Origin: a virus
Reading direction: 5' to 3' (one strand)
IMG/VR virus record: IMGVR_UViG_3300002835_000697
Span: 1 to 31,840 of that record
DNA: 31,840 bases
Of the stretch, positions 8,415 through 31,840 are shown piece by piece. Below the pieces are notes generated by a model, which was not told the origin of the DNA, did not search any database, and saw nothing but the letters and a program-made list of their open reading frames with translations. Both the position numbers and the translations under genes were made by a program. The stretch's first letter is position 1, and every line of letters begins with the position of its first letter.

Positions 8415-10244
8415 ATGTTTTCATATCAAAATAAGGTCGTTGGGGTTAAAATAACAGGTCAGGCAGGTTCTGATTTATTTGATATTTTAATTAACAGTGG
8501 ATATGTAGGATCGACTACTGGCTCTAGTCAAGGCGATGGAGCTTATCTTGTTGGTTCTGCTGATTCTTCGTTAAAATTGAGCAGCGTTAGACCTATACTA
8601 AGTGGTGGATGCCCAATTGCAATAAATTGGTCTTTTGATGATGACTGTAGTCAATCAACAGGCTACTCTCTCCTTCAACAAAATCCAATAGGAAACTTTT
8701 ATTATGATTTGCAAGCAGCAATTTATAACTTTTCTCTTGTTAAAAGTGGCGCAAATCCATGGGTTTTAAAAATAGGAGAAACTACCGAAGTCACAAGTAC
8801 GCTGTATAATTCTGGTAGTCCTTATGGATCATATACTGATTATGAAGGTGATTATTCGTTATCTATTTATCAAGATTATTCCACTTCCGAAGAGTCTTAT
8901 TATTTTAGCGAATTGATTCTAAACGAGGGTTCAAATCAACTATGCTTCATAAATAACCAAAACAACGGGATTGCGAATAAGCTATATTATGAAATCGGTT
9001 TATATGAATTAAGTGGTTCATATTTAGTTAATCCTTCTATTGTCGGAAGTGGCGAAATAAATCCAACAACTGGTGCTGATCAATGCATATCTTTCGATTT
9101 AGCATATCCAACTCCAGGAGGTTCTATCAATTTGTTTCAATTTGATCCGACATTTAGTGTTGATACTGGCAACTTAAACCAAATATTTACTGGCAGCGGA
9201 GTTCATTTACAAAAAGATGCAACATTCTTTTTTGATATTTTAGATCAACAACTTAATACCGTATCTTCTGATCAACAGTTTTTAGACAATCCGTTAATTG
9301 GTGGGTGTGTGTTTGATATTTTAAACATAGATGGAACAACTGCCGCCGCAAATTTCTTCACAGGAAAGTATTCACGCTCTGTAACTGTTTCAGCGCTAGA
9401 TAATGAAAACATTTTCGGCACTTATAAAAAAGATTTCGGCATAAGATGTAGATTGCCCAATTCATTTGATGGATCAATTTTCACAGGTGTATTCTTGGCG
9501 TATGGTAATGTTCCTAATATTTTGGACATTGTGCCAAACTATTCTGAATTTAGTGGAGCATCACAAGCAACAGAATCGCTTAACATCTCGATTGTATTGC
9601 AGAACGACTTGCGATTTACACAAATGGATCGCTATGATGTTTATGCTTCGACTGGAGCTGGCTCTGCCGTAAACGAATTGACATATCTTAATCCTACAGC
9701 TCAAGAGGGTTACTTATTCTCGCAGAGTGTTGCTAACGTATCTAACGCTTACGCTTTAACAATTAACAAGGGAGCATTGACAGAAAACACTCCATACTAC
9801 TTTACAGTTGTTCCATACGGAGCTTTAGGGTCTGGCAAGTCTTTTGTTTTCGGACCAACCACATTCGTAACTAAACAAACAAATGTAGTGCTATCAAGCG
9901 CCGATGTAAATGCCGTTAATATTTACGATGGAACTGGATTCAATCAAACAATATACCAAACAGGTAAACTTTGCTATGGAAGAGGTGTCATTCATGAATT
10001 TGATTCTGGAGTTTTTACCAGCGTAAAATACTTAGTAGAAATTAAAGACACAGGAAATATCAGAAGACTTTCTGAATTGAAAGGAGTAATCAATACCACT
10101 GGTCTTGCTTTAATACAAGAACCCGTAAACGATACATCATCGACATATCAACTTACGGGTCTTGCGGGAGGACTGTGTGGTTTGTATGTGAGCGGAAGTA
10201 ACTATACTGGCGCGACTTACAAATTACAGGGAACGATGTTTTAA
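8415..10244 (+). CDS. Tail-tip-associated protein, unrecognised family
   Basis: A 609-residue protein encoded directly after J, and therefore probably a tip or fibre component. Composition is Ser/Thr/Gly/Asn-rich, predicted mostly beta, with repeated TG and SG pairs as in the neighbouring structural proteins. A segment near residue 455 (PYYFTVVPYG) and its surroundings look like a fibronectin-III-type sandwich, similar to the J C-terminus. There is no signal peptide or transmembrane segment and no recognisable enzyme motif. The start ATG lies 3 bases after the J stop without a Shine-Dalgarno, consistent with coupling. Its 3' end overlaps the convergent minus-strand gene by 4 bases. Confidence 0.75.
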   Translation: MFSYQNKVVGVKITGQAGSDLFDILINSGYVGSTTGSSQGDGAYLVGSADSSLKLSSVRPILSGGCPIAINWSFDDDCSQSTGYSLLQQNPIGNFYYDLQAAIYNFSLVKSGANPWVLKIGETTEVTSTLYNSGSPYGSYTDYEGDYSLSIYQDYSTSEESYYFSELILNEGSNQLCFINNQNNGIANKLYYEIGLYELSGSYLVNPSIVGSGEINPTTGADQCISFDLAYPTPGGSINLFQFDPTFSVDTGNLNQIFTGSGVHLQKDATFFFDILDQQLNTVSSDQQFLDNPLIGGCVFDILNIDGTTAAANFFTGKYSRSVTVSALDNENIFGTYKKDFGIRCRLPNSFDGSIFTGVFLAYGNVPNILDIVPNYSEFSGASQATESLNISIVLQNDLRFTQMDRYDVYASTGAGSAVNELTYLNPTAQEGYLFSQSVANVSNAYALTINKGALTENTPYYFTVVPYGALGSGKSFVFGPTTFVTKQTNVVLSSADVNAVNIYDGTGFNQTIYQTGKLCYGRGVIHEFDSGVFTSVKYLVEIKDTGNIRRLSELKGVINTTGLALIQEPVNDTSSTYQLTGLAGGLCGLYVSGSNYTGATYKLQGTMF

Positions 10245-10399
10245 TTGCTTGCCATTGCTTCTAATCCAGCCAAGAAGTCTGCTTTCGCATGTTCTGGCAA
10301 ACGAGCGTAAAACTTCTTTGCTCGACGGTATGCGCGTTTTGACATTGCATTTTCAGGTTGGAGGATTTGTCTCAGTTTTTTTGCTTTTTTATTGTTCAT
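10241..10399 (-). CDS. Small basic protein, last gene of operon
   Basis: A 52-residue ORF. It starts Met-Asn-Asn-Lys-Lys-Ala-Lys-Lys and continues with a basic helical part (SKRAYRRAKKFYARLPE) and an alanine-rich end. The ATG overlaps the stop of the GNAT gene in an ATGA arrangement (10396-10399), and the frame is open from there to a TAA, filling an otherwise empty 150-base gap. I recognise no family; the high Lys/Arg content would suit binding to nucleic acid, which is a guess. Its last 4 bases overlap the convergent tail gene. Confidence 0.7.
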   Translation of the reverse strand: MNNKKAKKLRQILQPENAMSKRAYRRAKKFYARLPEHAKADFLAGLEAMASN

Positions 10400-10851
10400 A
10401 GTTTGCTAATATATGTTTCGGTATCTTTAAGGAAGCCCATTTTATGGTAGAATGATTTTACTTTTTGGTGATAAGGATTGTTGACTGCCGTAGACATGGT
10501 GATGTATTTGCACCCCATTTGTCGAGCAGTCTCAGTTGCTGTTTTAAACAGTTTATAACCAGCTTTTGGATTCTTAGATAGCCACAAAAATTCGTGAATT
10601 ATTTCTTCATTGAATTTTGGGCATCGAACTTTCTCAAAAGCGATCATTGCGTCAAATTTATCGCCTTGTAAATTTCCCCACACTAATAAATCCCACGCCA
10701 AAATAGATGGATGAGAGAAGTTAGCCTTGATAGTCTCTGGGCTGTGAGCTACCAAGGCGTGACCTTCATACAAATCATGTTGTTTAAAAAGCTCATACAT
10801 ATCGTCAATAAGCTTTTCAAATTCTACAGGATTTGTAATACGCTTAATCAT
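10396..10851 (-). CDS. GNAT-family N-acetyltransferase
   Basis: A 151-residue acetyltransferase of the GNAT fold. The C-terminal NNPYHQKVKSFYHKMGFL is the typical strand-helix end of the family, preceded by a helix/strand unit (KAGYKLFKTATETARQMGC, then KYITMST). The acetyl-CoA pyrophosphate loop (usually Q-x-x-G-x-G/A) is weak here, reduced to NPKAGYKLF. It should transfer an acetyl group from acetyl-CoA to an amine; the substrate is unknown. The gene lies between a possible DNA-annealing protein (8-base overlap) and the 52-residue protein, downstream of glycosyltransferase genes, so acetylation of a sugar or of a virion or host protein is conceivable. Confidence 0.85.
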   Translation of the reverse strand: MIKRITNPVEFEKLIDDMYELFKQHDLYEGHALVAHSPETIKANFSHPSILAWDLLVWGNLQGDKFDAMIAFEKVRCPKFNEEIIHEFLWLSKNPKAGYKLFKTATETARQMGCKYITMSTAVNNPYHQKVKSFYHKMGFLKDTETYISKL

Positions 10852-11608: not shown

Positions 11609-12758
11609 AGAGATAGAAATGGTTTAATTCGCTAAGAAGCAACTCATTATCTTCTATGACGAGGTTCTTGTCAAGAATATTTTTGTCTTTTTTCCAATGA
11701 TAGGTGCTGGGGTATTTTTTGCCGCGAGAAATGATCGTTTTATTGGAGTGAAAAAATGACTGGTTAAAAGTGATTTTTTTATCTTTTAAAATAGACTTAT
11801 CAGCAGTGGCATAAACTTGCACGTTGGAATTGAAATACTTATTACGAATCGTTGGAAGAATCGACACATCTTTAACCAAAAGATTGATGGTAATTCCTAG
11901 ACCGCTAATATAGTTGAGGTAATCATCAGAAATAACACTTTCCTCATTTACTAGAAAAGTAATATTCTTTAATTTGCCGCGAAGTTTCTGGATGAATTGA
12001 TGGGGGATCATCTTCTCTGTAAAGAATGAGAACGATTGCAGATACTCGCACCACGTTTCTACATACGAAAAAGAGTCAAGATAATCGAGTCTCATGAACC
12101 AGTGTTTCTCTGGCATTCCTGGCATTTGCGCAAAAAAGTCTGGAACCAACTCGAAAACAGAATGATGGTAAAAATCACCAAGGAAACGAGTTTTGAGCGG
12201 AATAGATTTTTCGGGCGTAAATTTTTTAATAATCGCATTTGCTATATCTTCTGGTAAAATTTTGTTGATTGAATCTTGTTGATCTACAGCGTTGAAGCTA
12301 GGCTTGACAGCCCAAGGCGCTTCGATGTTTGTTTTGTTTGAACTCCAGTAGCCATCAGAACAGGCGGCGTAAGAATCGCCAAATAATGTGACAATAGGAA
12401 TATCATTGGCGCTAGCATAATGCATAAGAGCGTCATTGCCACCGATATGCACTAAACTATTCTTTACGATATATGCCTGTTTTTTGAAATCAAGATCAAA
12501 GATCATTTCATCTACTGACGATAGTTTCTGTGATTTTGAAGAACCGATTTGAATAATCTTAATCGACTGCTTGCTCAAAAACGAACGCACAGTATCAAAC
12601 ACAATATCAAAATACTTATACTGCTTCGACTGAACTTGTGGCTCTACCGATACGGTAATATATTTTTCTGGAATGACTGGAAAGAAATGTTCCGCCAAAA
12701 CAGGCTTGCCAATTTTCACGCCAAGATTTTTGGCATATTCTTCTATTAGGTGACTCAT
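11595..12758 (-). CDS. C-terminal half of a GT9 (heptosyltransferase-like) glycosyltransferase plus unknown domain
   Basis: A 387-residue protein. Residues ~1-180 match the second Rossmann half of GT9 (ADP-heptose:LPS heptosyltransferase-like) enzymes: YITVSVEPQ strand, IIQIGSS, then the sugar-nucleotide site HIGGNDALMHYASANDIPIV and TLFGDS (~104-128). The first Rossmann half is missing and is instead found at the C-terminus of the preceding gene product (residues ~523-628). Residues ~195-387 form an extra domain that I do not recognise. The ATG overlaps the upstream TGA in ATGA (12755-12758), so both halves are probably made in comparable amounts and assemble as a split GT-B enzyme. The donor and acceptor are not known. 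Confidence 0.75.
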   Translation of the reverse strand: MSHLIEEYAKNLGVKIGKPVLAEHFFPVIPEKYITVSVEPQVQSKQYKYFDIVFDTVRSFLSKQSIKIIQIGSSKSQKLSSVDEMIFDLDFKKQAYIVKNSLVHIGGNDALMHYASANDIPIVTLFGDSYAACSDGYWSSNKTNIEAPWAVKPSFNAVDQQDSINKILPEDIANAIIKKFTPEKSIPLKTRFLGDFYHHSVFELVPDFFAQMPGMPEKHWFMRLDYLDSFSYVETWCEYLQSFSFFTEKMIPHQFIQKLRGKLKNITFLVNEESVISDDYLNYISGLGITINLLVKDVSILPTIRNKYFNSNVQVYATADKSILKDKKITFNQSFFHSNKTIISRGKKYPSTYHWKKDKNILDKNLVIEDNELLLSELNHFYLYDTK

Positions 12759-14641
12759 TGTAAATCGAATTGAATTTTATCTTTGCCGTTGTGAATGTAG
12801 CAGATGTTCTTTTGGGTAGTTGTTGTTGGCATAAATGCTAGGTCGAAATAACCTTTATGAGCGCCAGCTCCCTCTAAAATAAATGAATTCTCCAACATTT
12901 CAGAATATAAAATACATTTGTGAACAAAACGGTTATCCTCAATCAGCGGGAAATACTCTTGCCGTGTGGCGAAGTAGATGTTGTGCTGTGGATATTGCTT
13001 ATGCAAGTTTTCCATAAGACCGTTCAGCAAAAGAATATCAGATTCTGTTCCTTGCGCTAGAACGCAAATACGTCTGCCTTCGTCATCTTTATCAAGAACG
13101 CTTTCAAATTCTACAGGCTTTTGTTGTTGCTGCAAGCAGACATTGCGAAAATGATTGTGCATTTGTTCGCGATTGATTTCTTGCTGTAGTTTGTTTTTCC
13201 ATATTTTGAACGAAGTGTGATTTTCGTCAACTGATTCGCCAAGCATTTCCTTATGCAAAGAGATGATAAAGTCTTTTTCATCTGCTTCAAAATTAGGCTT
13301 GTGATCAGCATTGAATCGAGAGGGAGGATTGTCAAAGTCGTAATCAACTTCTGGCATAGAATCAATGAGAGATTCAAGCTCTTCACCAATCGCTTCAATA
13401 GAACAATAGTCCACTACAAATTGACGAGCTTTAATACCAATCGCTGCACGTTCAATCGAGGGCATATTATAAACAGTGAGTAACTGTTCGGCAATATGAT
13501 CGGGATCGGTAGATGCTTTGATGAATTGAGTTCCAGGCTCTCTATACTCTGCCCAATTAAGAGGCAAGCCGCCGCTTTCTTCTGTGCAATACTCTTCGCC
13601 GCAAGAATAGTTTGTGACGAGTGTGATAAGCTCTGTGAGTTTTGCTTCTTGAATTGGAATCTCTTGACCGCCACTTGTAAATGGATGGCAGTATACGTCC
13701 ATAAGGTTGTAGATTTCATTCAGTTGAGCTTCACTTACTCCTTGGTTAATGTTTGTAGTGCTTACCGTTCTTTTACCACCACATGCTGGGCAGTCGCGAT
13801 CTTGCCCCATAAATGGCGCAATGAAATAGCTCTTACATTGTTGGCAGAAATAAGTGGTGAGAATGTCTTTGTTGTCAATGCCCTTTTCTTGCAAGAGAGT
13901 TGGAATGTCCCATCCCTCTGACCAGTGAGTGTGCAACAAGAGTTTAGCATGAGGAACTTGTTGTTTAAACTTTTTAAAACCTTCCAGCAAATTAGGAACG
14001 CTTTTTCTAAGCTGATTTCTAAACACAAAGCCCACAATATATTCATTAGACAAATTAAACTTCTGACGCAATGCAGCGCGTCTATGATCATCCATTCTAT
14101 AGAATTGATTTACGTCTAAGCTTCCTCTGAGAGTTTTAATATGATTATAACCCATTCGTTGGAATGCTTTTTCCGCGAAAGAAGACCATACATAGTAATG
14201 TTTGATTTTGGGCGCAGCATCAATAGCTGATTGTAGAATTGGTAAGCTGTCAAGCGTAGTCCAAATCATGGAGTTCACTTTATTCCACCAAGGCTTTTCG
14301 TAGAAGCCGTCGAATGCCCAAATGTCCTCGATGCCAATATAAACATCAGGACGCACAGTATTGATAACATCATCAATACCAAAAGCACCATACGCAGCTT
14401 GACGTTGCTTGTGTTGGTCTTGATTGATTTCTGCCATCTTTTGAACATCTGGCAAAGAGCCATAAGTAGTCCATGGAGTGCTATCAGTTTCGGGGCAGCG
14501 TCTCATCAAGCCATTAGCAAGCTCAAAGATTTCATACTTGCCTGTATTAAACAGATAGCGCAAGATATTCTTTTTGTGCTTACCAAAGCCTGTGAAAGCT
14601 TTGCAGAAATTACTATGTATGAGAACTTTCTTTTTAGTCAT
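12755..14641 (-). CDS. GT4-type glycosyltransferase with zinc ribbon and a GT9 N-half at its C-terminus
   Basis: A 628-residue protein. Residues ~1-420 resemble a GT-B fold, GT4-family glycosyltransferase: a glycine loop near NFCKAFTGFGKHKKN, the second-domain start IVGFVFRNQLRKSVPNLLEG, and the donor-site region FTSGGQEIPIQEAKL (321-335). Of the usual EX7E pair only Glu332 remains; the first position is Gly324. A zinc-ribbon motif, Cys266-x2-Cys269-x14-Cys284-x2-Cys287, is inserted in the second Rossmann domain. Residues ~425-520 are a charged linker. Residues ~523-628 look like the first Rossmann half of a GT9 enzyme (RRICVLAQGTESDILLLNGL, then IYFATRQEYFPLI), which stops where the next gene begins. 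It overlaps its neighbours by 8 and 4 bases. Target: virion, host surface or DNA, unknown. Confidence 0.8.
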   Translation of the reverse strand: MTKKKVLIHSNFCKAFTGFGKHKKNILRYLFNTGKYEIFELANGLMRRCPETDSTPWTTYGSLPDVQKMAEINQDQHKQRQAAYGAFGIDDVINTVRPDVYIGIEDIWAFDGFYEKPWWNKVNSMIWTTLDSLPILQSAIDAAPKIKHYYVWSSFAEKAFQRMGYNHIKTLRGSLDVNQFYRMDDHRRAALRQKFNLSNEYIVGFVFRNQLRKSVPNLLEGFKKFKQQVPHAKLLLHTHWSEGWDIPTLLQEKGIDNKDILTTYFCQQCKSYFIAPFMGQDRDCPACGGKRTVSTTNINQGVSEAQLNEIYNLMDVYCHPFTSGGQEIPIQEAKLTELITLVTNYSCGEEYCTEESGGLPLNWAEYREPGTQFIKASTDPDHIAEQLLTVYNMPSIERAAIGIKARQFVVDYCSIEAIGEELESLIDSMPEVDYDFDNPPSRFNADHKPNFEADEKDFIISLHKEMLGESVDENHTSFKIWKNKLQQEINREQMHNHFRNVCLQQQQKPVEFESVLDKDDEGRRICVLAQGTESDILLLNGLMENLHKQYPQHNIYFATRQEYFPLIEDNRFVHKCILYSEMLENSFILEGAGAHKGYFDLAFMPTTTTQKNICYIHNGKDKIQFDLQ

Positions 14642-15169: not shown

Positions 15170-15817
15170 GTGTCCTATCTAAATCATAATATTCCCACGA
15201 TTACTTGCCTACTACGCAATGAATATCTTTTTAATCACGAAAAAGGACATGGTGAGTATACTTCATGCGATGTCCATTCTGTAACGTCAATTGAGAAGAG
15301 AGTTCCTCTATTTGAAGCGTTCTTGACGAATGGAGTAAACTGGACTCGCAGACCTATTACAGCATTCTGTTGGAAGCCTTGCGATCCAGTGCCATTGGAA
15401 CATGCAATGTATTGGGATTGTTTTAGTCCTTATGTTGATGTTCAGGTTCGCACACGAATGAAAGGTCTGAGAGCTTTACTCATCACGCCGCAAAATACCA
15501 AAGAAGCTGGAGAGTATATGTTCACGCTTGATTGGGGATGGGAGAATAAGAGTATCTTGGACACCAATTTTTCTGAAACACCAGAACATAAATGCGCTCA
15601 TGTATTCAAAATGGACAATGGTAACTTTTATGCTTACCCAAACAATCGCATTGTGTGGCACGATAATGCGTGGGTTGATAAGCCTATTGACAAAAATCCT
15701 GGATATAAGATCGACTTGACAGTATATAGCGTCGAAAATAAACGCACACTGTTTACTGATTATAGCTACATGACAGAATTCACCACTCAACCAAAAGAAG
15801 AAAATGTCACTCACTAA
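15170..15817 (+). CDS. Hypothetical protein, operon leader
   Basis: A 215-residue protein starting at GTG (the only early start; an ATG two bases before it is quickly closed). Sequence landmarks are HEKGHGEYTSCDVHSV (~23-38), NGVNWTRRPITAFCW (~54-68) and a tryptophan-rich DWGWENK (~119-125). It has no membrane segment or signal peptide, and I do not recognise the family. The mix of strands with conserved-looking His, Cys and Trp residues suggests a compact soluble domain. Its end overlaps the SET-domain gene by 14 bases, so the two are likely made together and may share a task, upstream of the fibre genes. Confidence 0.65.
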   Translation: MSYLNHNIPTITCLLRNEYLFNHEKGHGEYTSCDVHSVTSIEKRVPLFEAFLTNGVNWTRRPITAFCWKPCDPVPLEHAMYWDCFSPYVDVQVRTRMKGLRALLITPQNTKEAGEYMFTLDWGWENKSILDTNFSETPEHKCAHVFKMDNGNFYAYPNNRIVWHDNAWVDKPIDKNPGYKIDLTVYSVENKRTLFTDYSYMTEFTTQPKEENVTH

Positions 15818-25062: not shown

Positions 25063-25069
25063 TTATACT
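25063..25069 (-). promoter_or_regulatory. AGTATAA variant before 75-residue gene
   Basis: AGTATAA, one base different from AGTGTAA, lies 7 bases before the ATG at 25055 and overlaps the stop codon (TAG) of the Clp-like gene. It counts as weak support for a shared translation or transcription signal. Confidence 0.25.
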
Positions 25070-27362
25070 AAGCGATTACCACCGACTTGTCAAGAACTTT
25101 TATCGTCAAATTGCGACTTTTTTTACCAGAGGCAATGAATTGCGCGACTGAAGTTTGCACTTTGTTTCTGAAGATTGTTTTGATTTCGCGAGCGTGTAGT
25201 TTGCTTACGTCATCGACTAAATCTGAAAGAGTGATTTGGCAGTTGATTTTTATTCCTTTTTTATCTGCTCTCTCTTTGAGTTCTTCAAGGCATTGATCGA
25301 AAATCTTAGAAAGAGATTCTTCATTGATTTTTTCAAAGATGATAATCTCGTCAATACGCGAGCGCATCTCTGGAGACAACGCCTGTTTGATAGAAGACTC
25401 GAAAGAATTGGTGACATCTTCTGCATGAGACATAAAGCCCATTGACGGCTTGCTTGCTTCTACTGCGCCAATGTTACTCGTAAGAACGACAATCGTGCGA
25501 GAGAAGTCGATGTTGCGCCCATATCCATCTTTAAGCTTTCCTTCATCGAGGATTTGAAGCAACAAATTCAGCACAGAAAAGCTGCCCTTTTCGATTTCAT
25601 CAAACAAGATGAGGCTATTGGGATTGTTGCGCACGAAATCTGTAAGAATACCTCCTTCGTCATATCCAACATATCCTGCACTTGCCCCCAAAAGTCGAGA
25701 CACAGAAGCTGATTCTTGGTATTCACTCATGTTGAGCTGTAAATAACTGCTGTCATTGCCGAAGAATTCTTTTGCAATTTTTTTAGCAGTATGAGTTTTA
25801 CCAACGCTTGTTGGACCAACAAACAGAAAGCTCGACAATGGTTTATTTGGGGCATTGAGTCCAGCTTTTGCACATGCCAAACAATTGTAGATTTTTTCGA
25901 TTGCTTTGTTTTGACCGAAGATTTCTTTTTTGAAGTTGTCTGCCAGATCAGAGAATTTTTTGTCCAAGTTATTTCTAAGTGTATCTACATTCATGCCTGA
26001 GAGTTCCGACATAACCTTGAGCAAGTCTTCCATAGTGACAACTGCGATTGATTCTTCACCTGTTTGATTAGTGGTATTGAAGATGCGAATTTTTGCTTTG
26101 GCAAAAGCGCGATCAATAACATCAAAAGCTTTGTCGATGAATTTCTTGTGCGGCAAATAAGTCTCGCACATATCAACTGACATTTTTAACATTTTTTTCG
26201 GGAACTTAATGCCGTGATACTTTTCATAAGCTGGAGCTGCTTTCAGAACAATTTCTTTCATTTGTTCTAAGTCAGGTTCTTTAATATCTAAAATGTGGAA
26301 TCTTCGTGTAAGTGCGGCATCTTTTTCAAAGTATTTTTTATATTCTGAATATGTTGTTGCGCCAATGCACTTAATTTCGCCGCGAGCTAGTGCTGGCTTG
26401 ATTAGATTAGCAAAGTCTGGAGAACCTTCTTTGCCGCTGCCAGCGCCGATAATGCCGTGAATTTCATCAATGAACAAGATGGCGTTGCCGTCAGCTTTCA
26501 GTTCTTCAACTAGCTTGCTAAAACGCATCTCAAATTGACCACGATACTTGCTGCCAGCAATAAGAGATCCAACATCAAGAGAGTATATTTTTTTGTTTTT
26601 TAATGGTCCGTTATACTTTGGCGAAGAAATGTTTTGAGCCAAGCCTTCGACAACAGAAGTTTTTCCAGTTCCAGCTTCTCCAAGTAAAACGCAATTGCTT
26701 TTGATTTTGCAGTTAAGAATTTCTTCTAGGCTGCTAATCTCTTTATCTCGACCAGAGATGATGCCAAAACCTGGCTTTGATACAACATCGTTTAGCAAAA
26801 TGCAAAATCTATTGATTTGCGATTGACCAAGTTGTTTTGATTCAGCCGCATCTTCTTCATCGTCAAGATCGAGACCAAGATCATCGCCAATCATTTCTAT
26901 CGAATCGCTTTTAAGAAAAGCGTCAATAGAGTTTTTGAAATGCTCTGTATCAATGCCATTCTCTAGGAGAAAATCGCAAAACTTTTCTGAGCTTTGAAGA
27001 ACGCCCCAAATAAAATGCTCTGTTCCAATGAACATGTTCTCATGCTTGATAGCGAGCATAGTAGCATTTGAAATGCAATTCTGGATTTCTTTTTCGACAA
27101 GAGACTCCATTTCAGTGCTGAAAAACATATCAGGATTCTTCTTGGCGAATTTTTCTACAATAGTATGAAGAGTCTTCGGTTTAATGGAGAAACCTTTGCT
27201 TTCTATAAACTCAAGAAAAGGTGTGTTGCTATGCTCCCATAAGGAGATCAGCAGGTGATAGATGTTGGTTATTTTATGATTCTTAGATTCTGCTAATTTA
27301 GTTACATGCATCCAAGATTCTAAAGCACTGAATGTCCAATTTTTTTTGTCAAGGTCCATCAT
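25068..27362 (-). CDS. clpA: ClpA/ClpC-like AAA+ unfoldase
   Basis: A 764-residue HSP100 protein with two AAA+ modules. Residues ~1-150 form a Clp-N-like double repeat. D1 has Walker A GEAGTGKT (228-235), Walker B ILFIDE (295-300) and the Arg pair in DAALTRRFHIL. D2 has Walker A GPTSVGKT (516-523), Walker B LILFDE (584-589) and SPEMRSRID. D1 and D2 are joined without the long coiled M-domain of ClpB/ClpC, so it is closest to ClpA in layout. MGF (641-643) sits where the ClpP-docking [IV]G[FL] loop is found. It probably unfolds proteins and may feed host ClpP. Two adjacent ATGs (27362, 27359) are possible starts. It lies 14 bases after the polymerase gene. Confidence 0.9.
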   Translation of the reverse strand: MMDLDKKNWTFSALESWMHVTKLAESKNHKITNIYHLLISLWEHSNTPFLEFIESKGFSIKPKTLHTIVEKFAKKNPDMFFSTEMESLVEKEIQNCISNATMLAIKHENMFIGTEHFIWGVLQSSEKFCDFLLENGIDTEHFKNSIDAFLKSDSIEMIGDDLGLDLDDEEDAAESKQLGQSQINRFCILLNDVVSKPGFGIISGRDKEISSLEEILNCKIKSNCVLLGEAGTGKTSVVEGLAQNISSPKYNGPLKNKKIYSLDVGSLIAGSKYRGQFEMRFSKLVEELKADGNAILFIDEIHGIIGAGSGKEGSPDFANLIKPALARGEIKCIGATTYSEYKKYFEKDAALTRRFHILDIKEPDLEQMKEIVLKAAPAYEKYHGIKFPKKMLKMSVDMCETYLPHKKFIDKAFDVIDRAFAKAKIRIFNTTNQTGEESIAVVTMEDLLKVMSELSGMNVDTLRNNLDKKFSDLADNFKKEIFGQNKAIEKIYNCLACAKAGLNAPNKPLSSFLFVGPTSVGKTHTAKKIAKEFFGNDSSYLQLNMSEYQESASVSRLLGASAGYVGYDEGGILTDFVRNNPNSLILFDEIEKGSFSVLNLLLQILDEGKLKDGYGRNIDFSRTIVVLTSNIGAVEASKPSMGFMSHAEDVTNSFESSIKQALSPEMRSRIDEIIIFEKINEESLSKIFDQCLEELKERADKKGIKINCQITLSDLVDDVSKLHAREIKTIFRNKVQTSVAQFIASGKKSRNLTIKVLDKSVVIA

Positions 27363-27376: not shown

Positions 27377-29935
27377 TTATTTTAGCTCTGAGAGCTTCAT
27401 GTAGATTTTATCTTCTAAAAGGACGAGCTTGTCAAGCATAATAATGTCGTTATTTTTTTGACCAACACCAATTACCACTTCTCCTTTTTTGGGAATCTTT
27501 TTACCAGAACTTAGGAAGTTCGTAAGTTTCGGCTCTCTGCTGTTGTCCATAAGTAGCATTGAAATGTTACCACGCTCATCAGCAATGTCAATGCGAGCAT
27601 ATTTGTTTCCATTGGCGCTAGTCCTAGAAATGGAATCCACGACAAACCCGACAGAACATACGGTGGTATTGTTACTGACTGAAGATAAATCATGCGAAGA
27701 AACAAAATGAGACTGACTAGCTTCTTTGAAAACTTCGCGAATGTTTTGTGAATAGCTGTAACCAAGAAGCTTGCTCTCAAAGAACCAGTTAGCATACTTG
27801 ATGTGTTGTTTGTTTTGGTCATAGATTTGTCTATAGGGTTGATATTTCGTTTTGAATGTTTCAAAGCGCTTTTCAGAAAAGATGGCTTTGTTGTCATCGC
27901 CAACTGCTTTGGTTTTTACGGAGTCGCTAATGCTTTCCAAAAGATTGAAATTATACTTTTCACCCAAAGTGATCAGGTTTCTTTTCTCTCTATCTGTGAG
28001 GATATTAAATGTTTGTGCTTCCAAAACTAATCGGCAGCGATCTTTCTCAACGAAGTGATCGAGCAAACCAGCTTGAGCAAGTCCAGACATTAAGCCAATA
28101 TTCACACCAGCTTGTTTTGCCGCCATAAACACCTCATACTTGTTTTCGAATTCTCCTTGACGAAACTCTAGCAATGCTTCTAGGGACTTTGTAGAAACGC
28201 CTTTGATCGTATTCAAACCGTAGCGAATATCTTTACCTTCAATCGAGAAGTCGATTTCAGATTTGGTAAGACTAGGAGGCAAAAGCTCAATGCCAAATGA
28301 CGAAAGCTCTTGGGAAATCTTTAGGATTTCTTCATGAGGACTTGGCTCGAATTGCGCAAACTTCAAAAGGCTCAAGAAGAACTGTTGAGGATAGTTGAAT
28401 TTGAGATACACAGTCGTAGCTGCAAGGTAGGCATAAGCCATAGAGTGCGACTTGTTGAACGAGTAATTTGCAGAGTCTTCGGCGACCTTCCACAGAATAT
28501 CTCCAATGATAGGATCAAGACCGTTCTCTTGGATTTTTTGAGCGATCTTATCTTTCCACTCTGCCATTTTATCGACTTTTTTCTTGCCAACAATTCGACG
28601 CAATTGTTCTGATTCGTCAAGATTGAATCCGACCTTTACTGCCATCTTCATCAACTGTTCTTGAAACAAAGGAATGTTGCCAGTGTATGAGAGAACGTCA
28701 TCGAAGAACGGATGGATAGATTGAGACTCTCCTGTTCTTACATATTCTGCATACTTGTCGAGGAAGTCTAATGCTCCAGGTCTTGCAATGGCGACTACCG
28801 CAGAAAGCTGCTCTAGGTTGCGTGGCGCGACTTTCTGTGCGACTTTGAAGTTGGTATCAGCTTCAATCTGAAACAGACCTTTAGGAGCTTGCAGCGTTTG
28901 CAGTGCTGCATAAATAGAAGGATGCTCTACATCAATGTCGTGAGCTTTGATGCCAATCTGTTGGCAAACGTCATTAACTACCGACAGTGTGCGCAGCCCA
29001 AGAATATCGAACTTGACCATCAACTCTGCTACGTTGTTCATATCATATCCCGAAACTAACGCTTCTTCACCAGTATTCTGCACAGGCATAATCTCTTCTA
29101 GTGGATAGTAGCTAATAGCAATACCAGATGGATGAACGCCGACATTCTTGTTGAGACCTTCGATCTTTTTGGAGATGCGATAGATGCGTTTGTTCTTGTT
29201 CGCGAATTCTTTGAAGACTTCACTTTCTTCATACGCTACGCCAAGCTTCGCTACCTTGCCAAACTTTTTGGGAATTGAATCACTAATGATATTAACTTCC
29301 GACTCTGACATCTCACCAACAATCTTGCCACACTCTTTAATGCACAGCTTGCTGCTTAGAGTGTTGAGGGTTAGAATCTTGGAAGTTCTGCCAGCATATT
29401 TTTTATTAATATAATCTAGCACTTCTTGTCGTCTATCGTAGCTAATGTCGTTGTCAACATCGCACAGTAGCGAGCCATCCAAAAAGATTTCGCCGTTGTG
29501 TTCGATTTTTCTTGCACGGCTTTTAGAAACGAATCGCTCGAAGAATAGATCGTGCTTGATTGGATCAATATTAGTTACGCCAATGGCATACAACACCAAA
29601 CTTCCAGGAGCTGAGCCACGACCCGCACCTGTAGGAATGCCTGTTTCGTGACAGAAATTAATAATATCCCAATTCAACAAAACATAATCAATAAAGCCCA
29701 AATCTTCAAAGATAGACAATTCCATCTTGAGACGCTCAAAGTATTTTTCTTTGTTTGAAAATTCAAGAATGCCTCGTTTTTTCACACCTTCAAAACAAAT
29801 GCGGCGTAAGAATTCAAAGTTAGAAATGCTATCGGGAATTCCCAGCTCTTGATAGTAGCGCTGTTCGATTTGGATTTTAGGAAGTTTTACTCCTGCTGGA
29901 AATGGGGATTCGTAATGTGAGAATTGTTCAATCAT
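27377..29935 (-). CDS. dnaE: DNA polymerase III alpha subunit lacking the PHP domain
   Basis: An 852-residue C-family replicative polymerase. It begins just where the PHP domain of bacterial DnaE ends. Conserved blocks in order: GAGRGSAPGSLV (103-114), catalytic aspartates in CDVDND (Asp159, Asp161) and VKFDILGLRTL (Asp310), fingers GLFQIEAD (353-360) and VAIARPGAL, IPLFQEQLMKMA (421-432), SANYSFNKSHSMAYAYL (488-504). Then come a helix-hairpin-helix region (~570-600) and a C-terminal OB fold (TVCSVGFVVDSISRT, ~758-770). The OB position is that of DnaE, not PolC. It should copy the phage genome. It overlaps the exonuclease gene by 4 bases (ATGA), and the PHP-like gene lies before that. Confidence 0.93.
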   Translation of the reverse strand: MIEQFSHYESPFPAGVKLPKIQIEQRYYQELGIPDSISNFEFLRRICFEGVKKRGILEFSNKEKYFERLKMELSIFEDLGFIDYVLLNWDIINFCHETGIPTGAGRGSAPGSLVLYAIGVTNIDPIKHDLFFERFVSKSRARKIEHNGEIFLDGSLLCDVDNDISYDRRQEVLDYINKKYAGRTSKILTLNTLSSKLCIKECGKIVGEMSESEVNIISDSIPKKFGKVAKLGVAYEESEVFKEFANKNKRIYRISKKIEGLNKNVGVHPSGIAISYYPLEEIMPVQNTGEEALVSGYDMNNVAELMVKFDILGLRTLSVVNDVCQQIGIKAHDIDVEHPSIYAALQTLQAPKGLFQIEADTNFKVAQKVAPRNLEQLSAVVAIARPGALDFLDKYAEYVRTGESQSIHPFFDDVLSYTGNIPLFQEQLMKMAVKVGFNLDESEQLRRIVGKKKVDKMAEWKDKIAQKIQENGLDPIIGDILWKVAEDSANYSFNKSHSMAYAYLAATTVYLKFNYPQQFFLSLLKFAQFEPSPHEEILKISQELSSFGIELLPPSLTKSEIDFSIEGKDIRYGLNTIKGVSTKSLEALLEFRQGEFENKYEVFMAAKQAGVNIGLMSGLAQAGLLDHFVEKDRCRLVLEAQTFNILTDREKRNLITLGEKYNFNLLESISDSVKTKAVGDDNKAIFSEKRFETFKTKYQPYRQIYDQNKQHIKYANWFFESKLLGYSYSQNIREVFKEASQSHFVSSHDLSSVSNNTTVCSVGFVVDSISRTSANGNKYARIDIADERGNISMLLMDNSREPKLTNFLSSGKKIPKKGEVVIGVGQKNNDIIMLDKLVLLEDKIYMKLSELK

Positions 29936-30561
29936 AGATCAATGTTAAAAATTTGTTTTTTGAAGATTTCGAATGTCATCTCTACATCGTAGAGGCTATC
30001 GTGAAGTTTTTTAGGGTCATGAGGAATGTCGTAGTATTTAAGCATGAATGCTTGACTGGTTTTTAAACCCTTTTCGCGAATATGCAACATCTTATATTGC
30101 CATGATAAGAAATTTTCTTTATCGGGTAAGATATTCTTGAATATGGCAGTGGATATTGATTTTGTGTCAATGACTCTTTTGACATAAGAGTGATCGCTAT
30201 CCATGCCAATCATTTTACGCCAGACGTTGATCATATAAACATCAAAGCCAAGAAAGTTCTGTCCAATAACTAAAAACGATGGATCGTAAAGATACTTGGA
30301 AAGTTTTTCGAATACCTGAATAGGATGTTCGGCTTTTGAATAATAATGGTCTTTGTCAAAGCCTGTAATTCTGGCAGCATCGGGAGATACGTTGATATTG
30401 TCCCAGTGAATAAAGTGATCATGCTTGGAGACGATTGTATTGCCACGGCAAACAGTCCATGAAGCTTGCCACGGTCTGGAAGAGACGAGGTTGAGTCCCT
30501 CTGTCTCTGTATCTAAAACTATGTAGCTTTGATCTTTTTTGAATCTAAGTAGGTCGTTCAT
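29932..30561 (-). CDS. dnaQ: DnaQ-like 3'-5' exonuclease (DEDDh)
   Basis: A 209-residue proofreading-type exonuclease. The DEDDh motifs are intact: Exo I VLDTETEGL (Asp17, Glu19), Exo II GQNFLGFDVYMI (Asp107) and Exo III HDSLYD (His187-x4-Asp192). Such proteins remove mispaired 3' ends using two metal ions. The gene sits between the PHP-like and polymerase genes with 4-base ATGA overlaps on both sides, so it is very likely the proofreading subunit of this phage polymerase. There is no helicase or extra domain. Confidence 0.9.
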   Translation of the reverse strand: MNDLLRFKKDQSYIVLDTETEGLNLVSSRPWQASWTVCRGNTIVSKHDHFIHWDNINVSPDAARITGFDKDHYYSKAEHPIQVFEKLSKYLYDPSFLVIGQNFLGFDVYMINVWRKMIGMDSDHSYVKRVIDTKSISTAIFKNILPDKENFLSWQYKMLHIREKGLKTSQAFMLKYYDIPHDPKKLHDSLYDVEMTFEIFKKQIFNIDL

Positions 30562-31325
30562 GGTTGGTTCATTATTGTTTTAAGTTTTTGTTCGTATTGT
30601 TCCCAGCAAAATTCATCGCTGCCAAAGTGTTCTAAGTTGGGGCAAGAGAGTGTCGCTTGCTTGCCAAATTTGCGGTCGCTGAGAATCTTGTATGTCTGAA
30701 AGGCATCGCAGTCAGATTTGTGCTTATAAAAAATAGATTGCACTAATTGAATTGATGCATTTGGCATGGTATCTCGCGCATAACGATGCACAGCTTTCTT
30801 GATTAGTTCATCAAATGGAAGTCCGTTAGACTCGATGAAAAATACTGGATTGAGCGGTGCGATATTTGGAATGCAATTGCCCATAATCATTTGATTATTA
30901 AAAATAAATGAGTCATAAAAAGGAACAGCTAACATCAGATCGTCGCTCCAGTGAGAGATTAGATCGTCATTAGAGATAGCGCCTTTTTGACTTGTATTGA
31001 TAAAAGAATACAATTGATTCAAAGCTTTGCAACCAGCGTCATTTTTGGCAAAGGCGATAAGCTTATGATTAGACTTGGTATTGGCATCAGAGTTGCAGCA
31101 TACGAATTTATAGCCGAAGTGTAATTGAATGCCTAGCTCTTTAGAAATTCTAAAGGCTTCGAAGAATCCAGTCATTGATTCCTCAACCAAGAAAAGGTTC
31201 TTCAAACCGCTTTCTTTAGCGATTGAAAAGATGCTATCAGAACCATCCGAAGTTTCTTTGTCGGGGTGCTGTAGCGTGAGAATCGACTTGCCTATCGAGA
31301 AGTGAGATGTAAATATAGGAATCAT
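30558..31325 (-). CDS. PHP-domain-like protein split from polymerase III alpha
   Basis: A 255-residue protein resembling the N-terminal PHP part of DnaE. Its order of elements is SHFSIGKSI (near the start), SIFSIAKESGLKNLFLVEES, the alpha/beta segment FEAFRISKELGIQLHFGYKF (~55-74) and HKLIAFAKNDAGCKALNQLYS (~89-109), in line with DnaE's 'gIkPIiG.E' and 'h.i.LAkn..GyknL.kL.S'. The metal-binding motifs look lost: HxH is TSH and the TDH motif is VEES. It is probably a structural partner of the polymerase and not a nuclease. I start at the ATG at 31325; a TTG three bases upstream is unneeded. It lies upstream of the exonuclease gene with ATGA coupling. Confidence 0.75.
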   Translation of the reverse strand: MIPIFTSHFSIGKSILTLQHPDKETSDGSDSIFSIAKESGLKNLFLVEESMTGFFEAFRISKELGIQLHFGYKFVCCNSDANTKSNHKLIAFAKNDAGCKALNQLYSFINTSQKGAISNDDLISHWSDDLMLAVPFYDSFIFNNQMIMGNCIPNIAPLNPVFFIESNGLPFDELIKKAVHRYARDTMPNASIQLVQSIFYKHKSDCDAFQTYKILSDRKFGKQATLSCPNLEHFGSDEFCWEQYEQKLKTIMNQP

Positions 31326-31332
31326 CAAGAAG

Positions 31333-31361
31333 AGAATAATACATCCCCTTCACGATGTCAA
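31333..31361 (-). promoter_or_regulatory. Sigma-70-like promoter before PHP-like gene
   Basis: On the minus strand, a perfect TTGACA (31356-31361), a 17-base spacer and TATTCT (31333-31338, four of six matches). Only 7 bases separate the -10 from the ATG at 31325, so transcription would begin at about the start codon and give a leaderless mRNA. The -35 box overlaps the stop codon of the nuclease gene. It could drive the whole replication operon. Confidence 0.5.
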
Positions 31362-31840
31362 GACTTTTTTTGATGTGTAGGACATCCGCCATAGCTACGC
31401 TTCTCGTATTTTTGTCCTTCTGGAATATCTGATTCATTAAAATATGATTTTAATTGCTTTCCGTTTTCATCTACAGTGGAGAAATAATCGAAAGCCCATT
31501 TACAGGAACATGCCCACATAGGAGTTCCATCAATCTTTAGCTGTCCTGGATATTTGGCGAATCCACATTGTAGTGGTCCACTAAAAGTTTTATCTTTCGG
31601 GAACGGCTGCTTAGATGCAAAGTTAGAATAAGCATCTTCTTCGGAGAAATTGTCGAGGTATTCTTGAATCGCTGTTAGTTGATGCTCAAAGCCTTCTAAG
31701 TCATCATCGGTGATTGGAGCCATGCGAATGATGCCAGAGTTCTTTGAATCGTCTAATTCAAACTTCAAAAATAGAAACTCGCTTGCTCTATCCGAATATT
31801 CGGGGAACAAGTGTTTTACTGCAAGACTATACATGTAGTC
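31358..31840 (-). CDS. Cas4/RecB-like nuclease, C-terminal part (5' end outside window)
   Basis: About 160 residues, with the frame open to the right edge (the codons before the first Met still read Asp-Tyr), so the true start is outside. Features fit the C-terminal part of a PD-(D/E)XK, RecB/Cas4-type nuclease: a DYMYSLAVKHLFPEY helix (the 'QL..Y...' helix after the catalytic core), FLFLKFE, and a late cysteine-rich region (CGFAKY, WACSCKWAFDYF, GGCPTH). The cysteines could bind Fe-S or zinc as in AddB/Cas4 nucleases, but the spacing is not the standard one. The catalytic D..DxK residues would be outside the window. It probably processes DNA ends for replication or recombination. Confidence 0.6.
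   Translation of the reverse strand, partial: DYMYSLAVKHLFPEYSDRASEFLFLKFELDDSKNSGIIRMAPITDDDLEGFEHQLTAIQEYLDNFSEEDAYSNFASKQPFPKDKTFSGPLQCGFAKYPGQLKIDGTPMWACSCKWAFDYFSTVDENGKQLKSYFNESDIPEGQKYEKRSYGGCPTHQKKS

Follow-up and report, generated by a model that had tools for sequence, protein, structure and literature searches.

A probable three-subunit DnaE-type replicase with a stand-alone PHP domain in uncultured tailed phages

Can the PHP domain of a bacterial-type replicase be a protein of its own? The question is raised by a linear IMG/VR virus record of 31,840 bases (IMGVR_UViG_3300002835_000697; hereafter the window, at its full length), in which tail genes are found elsewhere. The original prediction, made from the sequence alone, had described three overlapping genes at 27377–31325 as a replicase in pieces: a PHP-like protein, an exonuclease and a polymerase. 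All three open reading frames (ORFs) were recovered as described, and both junctions were ATGA overlaps. Our analysis indicated that the replicative polymerase of a large group of uncultured tailed phages is very likely a DnaE-type Pol III alpha in three subunits, with an inactive PHP as a scaffold. We also consider it fairly likely that PHP links polymerase and proofreader as a non-catalytic subunit in its own right, fixed once in an ancient, widespread phage lineage. The features of the locus are as follows.

30558–31325, minus strand: PHP subunit, 255 amino acids; ORF from ATG, with a putative earlier TTG at 31328 that would give 256 amino acids
30558–30561, minus strand: ATGA overlap of PHP stop and exonuclease start, read in the DNA
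29932–30561, minus strand: DEDDh 3'-5' exonuclease, predicted proofreader, 209 amino acids; RNase_T, phrog_192
29932–29935, minus strand: ATGA overlap of exonuclease stop and polymerase start, read in the DNA
27377–29935, minus strand: DnaE-type polymerase without PHP domain, 852 amino acids; PF07733, PF17657, PF14579

Relatives were collected by pattern scans of viral contigs; each scan contributed only its 80 best loci to the fetched set. The polymerase as a single query gave 78 loci, whereas an alignment retrieved 402 relatives and a second one at least 427; stretches encoding a relative numbered at least 553 starting from PHP and 361 starting from the exonuclease, and these counts overlap one another. 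The fetched loci contained 248 near-full-length polymerase ORFs, which grouped into 114 clusters at 95% identity, drawn from IMG/VR and a small number of contigs of metagenome-assembled genomes (MAGs). Enough upstream sequence was present in 106 clusters to be evaluable, and the other eight end at a contig edge. PHP, exonuclease and polymerase were found in that order on one strand in 106/106 evaluable clusters, and no ORF among them combined two of the three parts. As positive controls for fusion, the PHP and polymerase profiles both matched single ORFs of Halobacteriovorax DnaE and of phage phiT1. Loci found from PHP or the exonuclease held the whole trio in 145 of the 145 cases with room for it, many of these contigs being shared with the polymerase set. 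The search of phage genomes for this gene order, proposed with the original prediction, thus returned it throughout. No close isolated phage was found in 50,697 records, where the best polymerase identity was about 32% and PHP had no match. The MAG contigs with the trio came from bins assigned to Bacteroidota, Halobacteriovorax, Verrucomicrobiales and even Woesebacteria or Lokiarchaeota; because the bins are so mixed, their binning is unreliable and a host is not assignable, the evidence on hosts being only indirect.

In a maximum-likelihood tree that included fused phage and host DnaEs, a single internal branch of length 1.57, with support 100/100, set all split polymerases apart as one clade. 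The tree indicates that the split arrangement has a single origin. Its nearest fused relative is not safely nameable, because a long branch beside Bacillus phage PJN02 was flagged as unsafe. When the window was compared with close relatives, each of the three genes gave a ratio of nonsynonymous to synonymous substitution rates (dN/dS) of 0.03–0.10, indicating purifying selection. Together with the strict conservation of the trio, this bears out the earlier view that the locus is stable and functional and not decaying. The synonymous rate dS was uneven across the trio: 0.17 for PHP, 1.7 for the exonuclease and 1.8 for the polymerase against relative L008, and 1.1, 1.1 and 0.32, respectively, against L005. 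Such differences between genes of one pair suggest that parts of the operon have been exchanged by recombination.

The 255-residue protein was weak by Pfam alone (PHP, 0.0029, under the curated cut-off). It matched positions 64–292 of the phage DnaE profile phrog_405 at 6e-10, and the 852-residue polymerase spanned positions 324–1068 of the same profile. The PHP gene of relatives exceeded the curated Pfam cut-off in 5 of 20 records (best 38.4 bits, G012). An AlphaFold2 model (predicted local distance difference test, pLDDT, 86; predicted TM-score, pTM, 0.85) was compared with the PDB by Foldseek, and every one of the 19 best matches was a chain of Pol III alpha or PolC, an E. coli PHP-epsilon chimera among them (E down to 2.7e-11, TMq as high as 0.73). 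The phrog_405 match, the relatives that pass Pfam and the fold search make the PHP identity secure; judging by its model, the protein is a stand-alone Pol III alpha PHP domain. A fold prediction had been named beforehand as the test of its PHP-like character, and this was the fold obtained. None of the PHP metal motifs examined (HxH, TDH, GxE, DxH) occurred in any of the 106 clusters; the fused reference DnaEs in the same alignment had for the most part kept these four motifs. The PHP subunit is therefore predicted to be without a metal site and catalytically dead. Many of its residues are invariant. Between the window and relative L007, identity was 80% for PHP, 82% for the exonuclease and 92% for the polymerase, PHP being the most variable of the three.

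The gene between PHP and polymerase, previously read as a DEDDh exonuclease, held up on inspection. Its 209-residue product matched RNase_T in Pfam (1.1e-8) and phrog_192, 'DNA polymerase exonuclease subunit' (5e-20), and all five DEDDh residues (D17, E19, D107, H187, D192) were present and invariant in 106/106 clusters. Its closest solved relatives were the PolC-type exonuclease domain 2p1j (2.3e-7) and then DnaQ proteins. From its sequence, it is probably the proofreader of the replicase.

The 852-residue protein matched DNA_pol3_alpha (PF07733, 2.4e-59), the fingers domain (PF17657, 2.3e-28) and HHH_6 (PF14579, 1.4e-15). The profile of its own family matched Taq DnaE at 1.9e-107, against only 4.7e-8 for PolC. 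In its AlphaFold2 model (pLDDT 78, pTM 0.76), the 14 best PDB matches were Pol III alpha chains (about 1e-32), followed by PolC; OB-fold proteins also appeared in the Foldseek list, ranked after the Pol III chains. Three parts of this protein were located in the DNA.

29447–29461, minus strand: polymerase catalytic motif CDVDNDI with D159, D161 (and D163), invariant in 106/106 clusters
29006–29008, minus strand: third catalytic aspartate D310 (VKFDILGL), invariant in 106/106 clusters
27416–27664, minus strand: C-terminal OB fold, residues 758–840, five strands in the AlphaFold2 model

The OB fold lies C-terminal to the HhH motifs. No tau-binding C-terminal domain was detected; the polymerase ends about 12 residues past the OB fold with no further Pfam domain. 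These results indicated that the protein is a C-family polymerase, clearly of the DnaE type, with palm, fingers, HhH and OB and without PHP. They agree with the earlier description of a polymerase that begins at the PHP/palm boundary, keeps its catalytic residues and ends in a DnaE-like OB fold. The likeness to PolC that had been pointed out stood only in part: the gene order is shared, but the exonuclease does not interrupt PHP, and the polymerase belongs clearly to the DnaE type. PolC ancestry of the polymerase was rejected on profile scores, fold search and tree.

The trio was then compared with known systems. Like the E. coli Pol III core (DnaE plus DnaQ), it has a DnaE-type palm, fingers, HhH and OB, an inactive PHP and a separate DEDDh exonuclease. 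In E. coli, however, PHP and polymerase are one chain and epsilon binds PHP via a long C-terminal tail, whereas in the trio PHP is encoded separately, the exonuclease lacks such a tail, and no tau-binding domain was detected beyond the OB fold, where the polymerase stops. PolC of low-GC Gram-positive bacteria shares the order of PHP, exonuclease and polymerase, and the nearest solved relative of the exonuclease is PolC-type; PolC nevertheless carries its exonuclease inside PHP of one chain with the OB ahead of PHP, in contrast to three chains, a C-terminal OB and DnaE-type sequence. Bacteroidetes DnaE1 with a fused exonuclease (Timinskas et al.) likewise combines a DnaE-type polymerase with a dedicated DEDDh exonuclease, but as a single chain in the order exonuclease-PHP-polymerase and not on three chains in the order PHP-exonuclease-polymerase; the trio polymerase is also far from Flavobacteriaceae DnaE in the tree. 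In PolC and in Bacteroidetes DnaE1, all parts are in one chain (PMC3919608).

Phage C-family polymerases in separate genes are known from group 2.2 jumbo phages (Iyer et al., PMC7824862). There the interruption falls within the catalytic domain, the pieces are encoded at a distance from each other, and these phages have a family B polymerase as well; the trio is divided at the PHP/palm boundary into neighbouring genes, and the searches turned up no other polymerase. DnaE is also divided into two ORFs in two isolated phages, Cellulophaga phage phiST and Rossellomorea phage phiT1. There the breaks lie inside the polymerase (profile position about 145 and 330, respectively), and PHP stays fused to the first polymerase part. 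In phiST, a marine phage (L193:33697–37297), the two ORFs are adjacent and split within the palm region, and a DEDDh exonuclease gene lies 4.6 kb upstream; phiST is an independent way of dividing the replicase. PHP was fused to the polymerase in the 10 isolate phages sampled (one partly broken downstream) and in the host DnaE controls, and a survey of bacterial polymerases from 2026 (PMC12926913), in the passages searched, counts PHP as belonging to the C-family chain. The literature searched, to which the 2011 viral replicase survey of Kazlauskas and Venclovas did not belong, held no description of a stand-alone PHP gene or of a PHP/exonuclease/polymerase trio. The parts are known; what appears to be new is a separate PHP subunit that is fixed throughout an entire phage lineage.

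The trio lies in a conserved operon. A UvsX/RecA-like recombinase, a small nuclease-like gene, a DnaB-like helicase, a DnaG-like primase and a PD-(D/E)XK nuclease are followed by PHP, exonuclease, polymerase and a ClpA/B-like ATPase; the last four upstream genes and the downstream ATPase recurred in about 147–151 loci. Two of these neighbours are in the window.

31358–31840, minus strand: PD-(D/E)XK (Cas4/RecB-like) nuclease, C-terminal part, cut by the window edge
25068–27362, minus strand: ClpA/ClpB-like AAA+ ATPase, 764 amino acids, next operon gene; phrog_4871 (3.6e-198), AAA_2, AAA

The entire nuclease gene was found in the near-identical relative L003 (338 amino acids; PDDEXK_1, 8e-16), and the nuclease occupied the same place in 151 loci. 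The ATPase followed the polymerase directly in about 147 loci of relatives. Twenty large relatives (66–206 kb) had one C-family polymerase each. A complete DnaE gene elsewhere in the genome had been named beforehand as counter-evidence; none of these 20 relatives had a second or complete DnaE, the record of the window itself being only a 31.8-kb fragment. No family A or B polymerase was found in 15 of the 20 large records. The possibility that the trio is accessory to a second polymerase was rejected after families A, B and C had been searched in the large records and none found.

We propose the following arrangement. The polymerase core (palm, fingers, HhH and OB) would be one protein, and the DEDDh exonuclease would supply proofreading. 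We infer physical assembly, and with it a stoichiometry, for the three proteins: probably made together through translational coupling, they would form one complex, in which the PHP subunit would dock on the polymerase at the place it has in an ordinary DnaE and may help hold the exonuclease near the primer end. As its metal site is lost, PHP would serve only as a scaffold. A structural role is reported for the inactive PHP domain of E. coli (PMC3666897), and Barros et al. (PMC3666897) report that in alpha-, beta- and gammaproteobacteria an inactive PHP pairs with a separate exonuclease. A dead PHP with a complete exonuclease in trans is the same pairing, and we count it in favour of the three-subunit replicase. 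Several observations weigh on the other side. The exonuclease has no C-terminal extension with clamp- or PHP-binding segments of the E. coli epsilon type, its chain stopping 17 residues past D192, so any contact with PHP must be of another kind, and there may be none. Cargo genes lie between PHP and exonuclease or between exonuclease and polymerase in some relatives, so tight coupling is not obligatory. Neither a sliding clamp (bacterial beta or T4 gp45) nor a convincing clamp loader was found in these contigs, nor was an obvious clamp-binding motif, and the weak clamp-loader matches fell mostly on the Clp-like ATPase beside the polymerase; the phages may therefore use the host clamp. Finally, the IMG/VR records are fragments and may lack part of each genome.

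The cargo genes also bear on a different reading, in which exonuclease and polymerase alone are the replicase and the PHP-like protein now has a different function, for instance in binding to a protein of the host, and is kept by co-transcription. Cargo that parts PHP from the exonuclease and polymerase in several relatives would fit this, as would the metal site gone in all members and the standing of PHP as the most variable of the three genes. We regard it as unlikely, since the fold is specifically that of an alpha-subunit PHP and not of other PHP enzymes, many PHP residues are invariant, PHP never occurs without exonuclease and polymerase where the contig allows, and nothing in the polymerase takes the place of the domain it lacks. 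A slightly lower probability attaches to the trio as an accessory polymerase for repair or translesion synthesis, with host Pol III copying the phage genome. The missing clamp and clamp loader imply at least partial dependence on the host, and DnaE2-type accessory polymerases too have an inactive PHP (PMC3919608); against this stand an operon shared with helicase and primase genes, a complete proofreader and the lack of any other family A, B or C polymerase in the large records. That an ordinary fused DnaE was recently broken or misassembled is scarcely credible, even though adjacent domains of one known protein appear here as separate ORFs and broken DnaE genes are known in phiT1 and phiST: the pieces are separated by an entire exonuclease gene, 106 independent clusters share the arrangement, the clade is deep (the branch of 1.57), and all parts are under purifying selection. 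Decay or an assembly artefact was thus ruled out by the conserved order, the clade and the dN/dS values.

If the three-subunit replicase is correct, it is a natural separation of a domain otherwise fused to the polymerase. The split arrangement also shows that the covalent PHP-polymerase link, assumed in surveys of bacterial C-family enzymes, is dispensable. The role of PHP in bacterial replicases is debated: the domain is a nuclease in some, and in E. coli it is inactive yet required for structure (PMC3666897). Because PHP is here naturally separate yet under selection, polymerase activity, stability and proofreading could be compared with and without the PHP protein, so that its role would be testable by adding or omitting one protein instead of by mutation.

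Metabolic or modifying genes that lie between the trio genes of different relatives encode an IMP dehydrogenase (L058:8202–9191), a JmjC/cupin-like protein (L111:2475–4336), a SET domain protein (L052:8795–9364), an FkbM methyltransferase (L018:9379–9993) and a mannose-6-phosphate isomerase-like cupin (L031:8944–9294). Their presence indicates that the parts are separate genes and not one frameshifted chain. LAGLIDADG endonuclease ORFs sit precisely in the exonuclease-polymerase junction in three relatives (L170:4186–4971, L171 and L186:4205–4996), and homing elements seem to be drawn to this site.

In cyanobacterial split-intein DnaE, each half carries part of an intein, and trans-splicing joins the two. 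The window proteins showed nothing resembling an intein at either end; with no such ends and with whole genes between the pieces, joining of PHP and polymerase by trans-splicing was ruled out. In four relatives (L109:4998–7982, L213, L070:10001–12882 and L071:8098–11909), the polymerase itself was broken at ...YSFNK|SHS by an apparent split intein, with an N-part of about 95–100 residues from a Cys and a C-part of about 38 residues ending ...DHNFYA.G.VTSN; the replicase would there come from four genes. L071 has a 276-residue reverse-strand ORF (9860–10690) between the polymerase halves. Rfam gave no match on the window, L071 or L109, so that no known intron family accounts for the broken polymerase in L071 and L109; the intein does.

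Two genes of the window lie between its tail genes. A GTG-started ORF of 215 amino acids (15170–15817) carries the ferredoxin annotation of phrog_3704 (2.5e-52) and is possibly an auxiliary metabolic gene. A glycosyltransferase-like protein (12755–14641; phrog_2170, 1.4e-18) is encoded in a minus-strand cluster, and a homologous-looking gene for 629 amino acids lies downstream of the polymerase in relative L041 (17798–19687).

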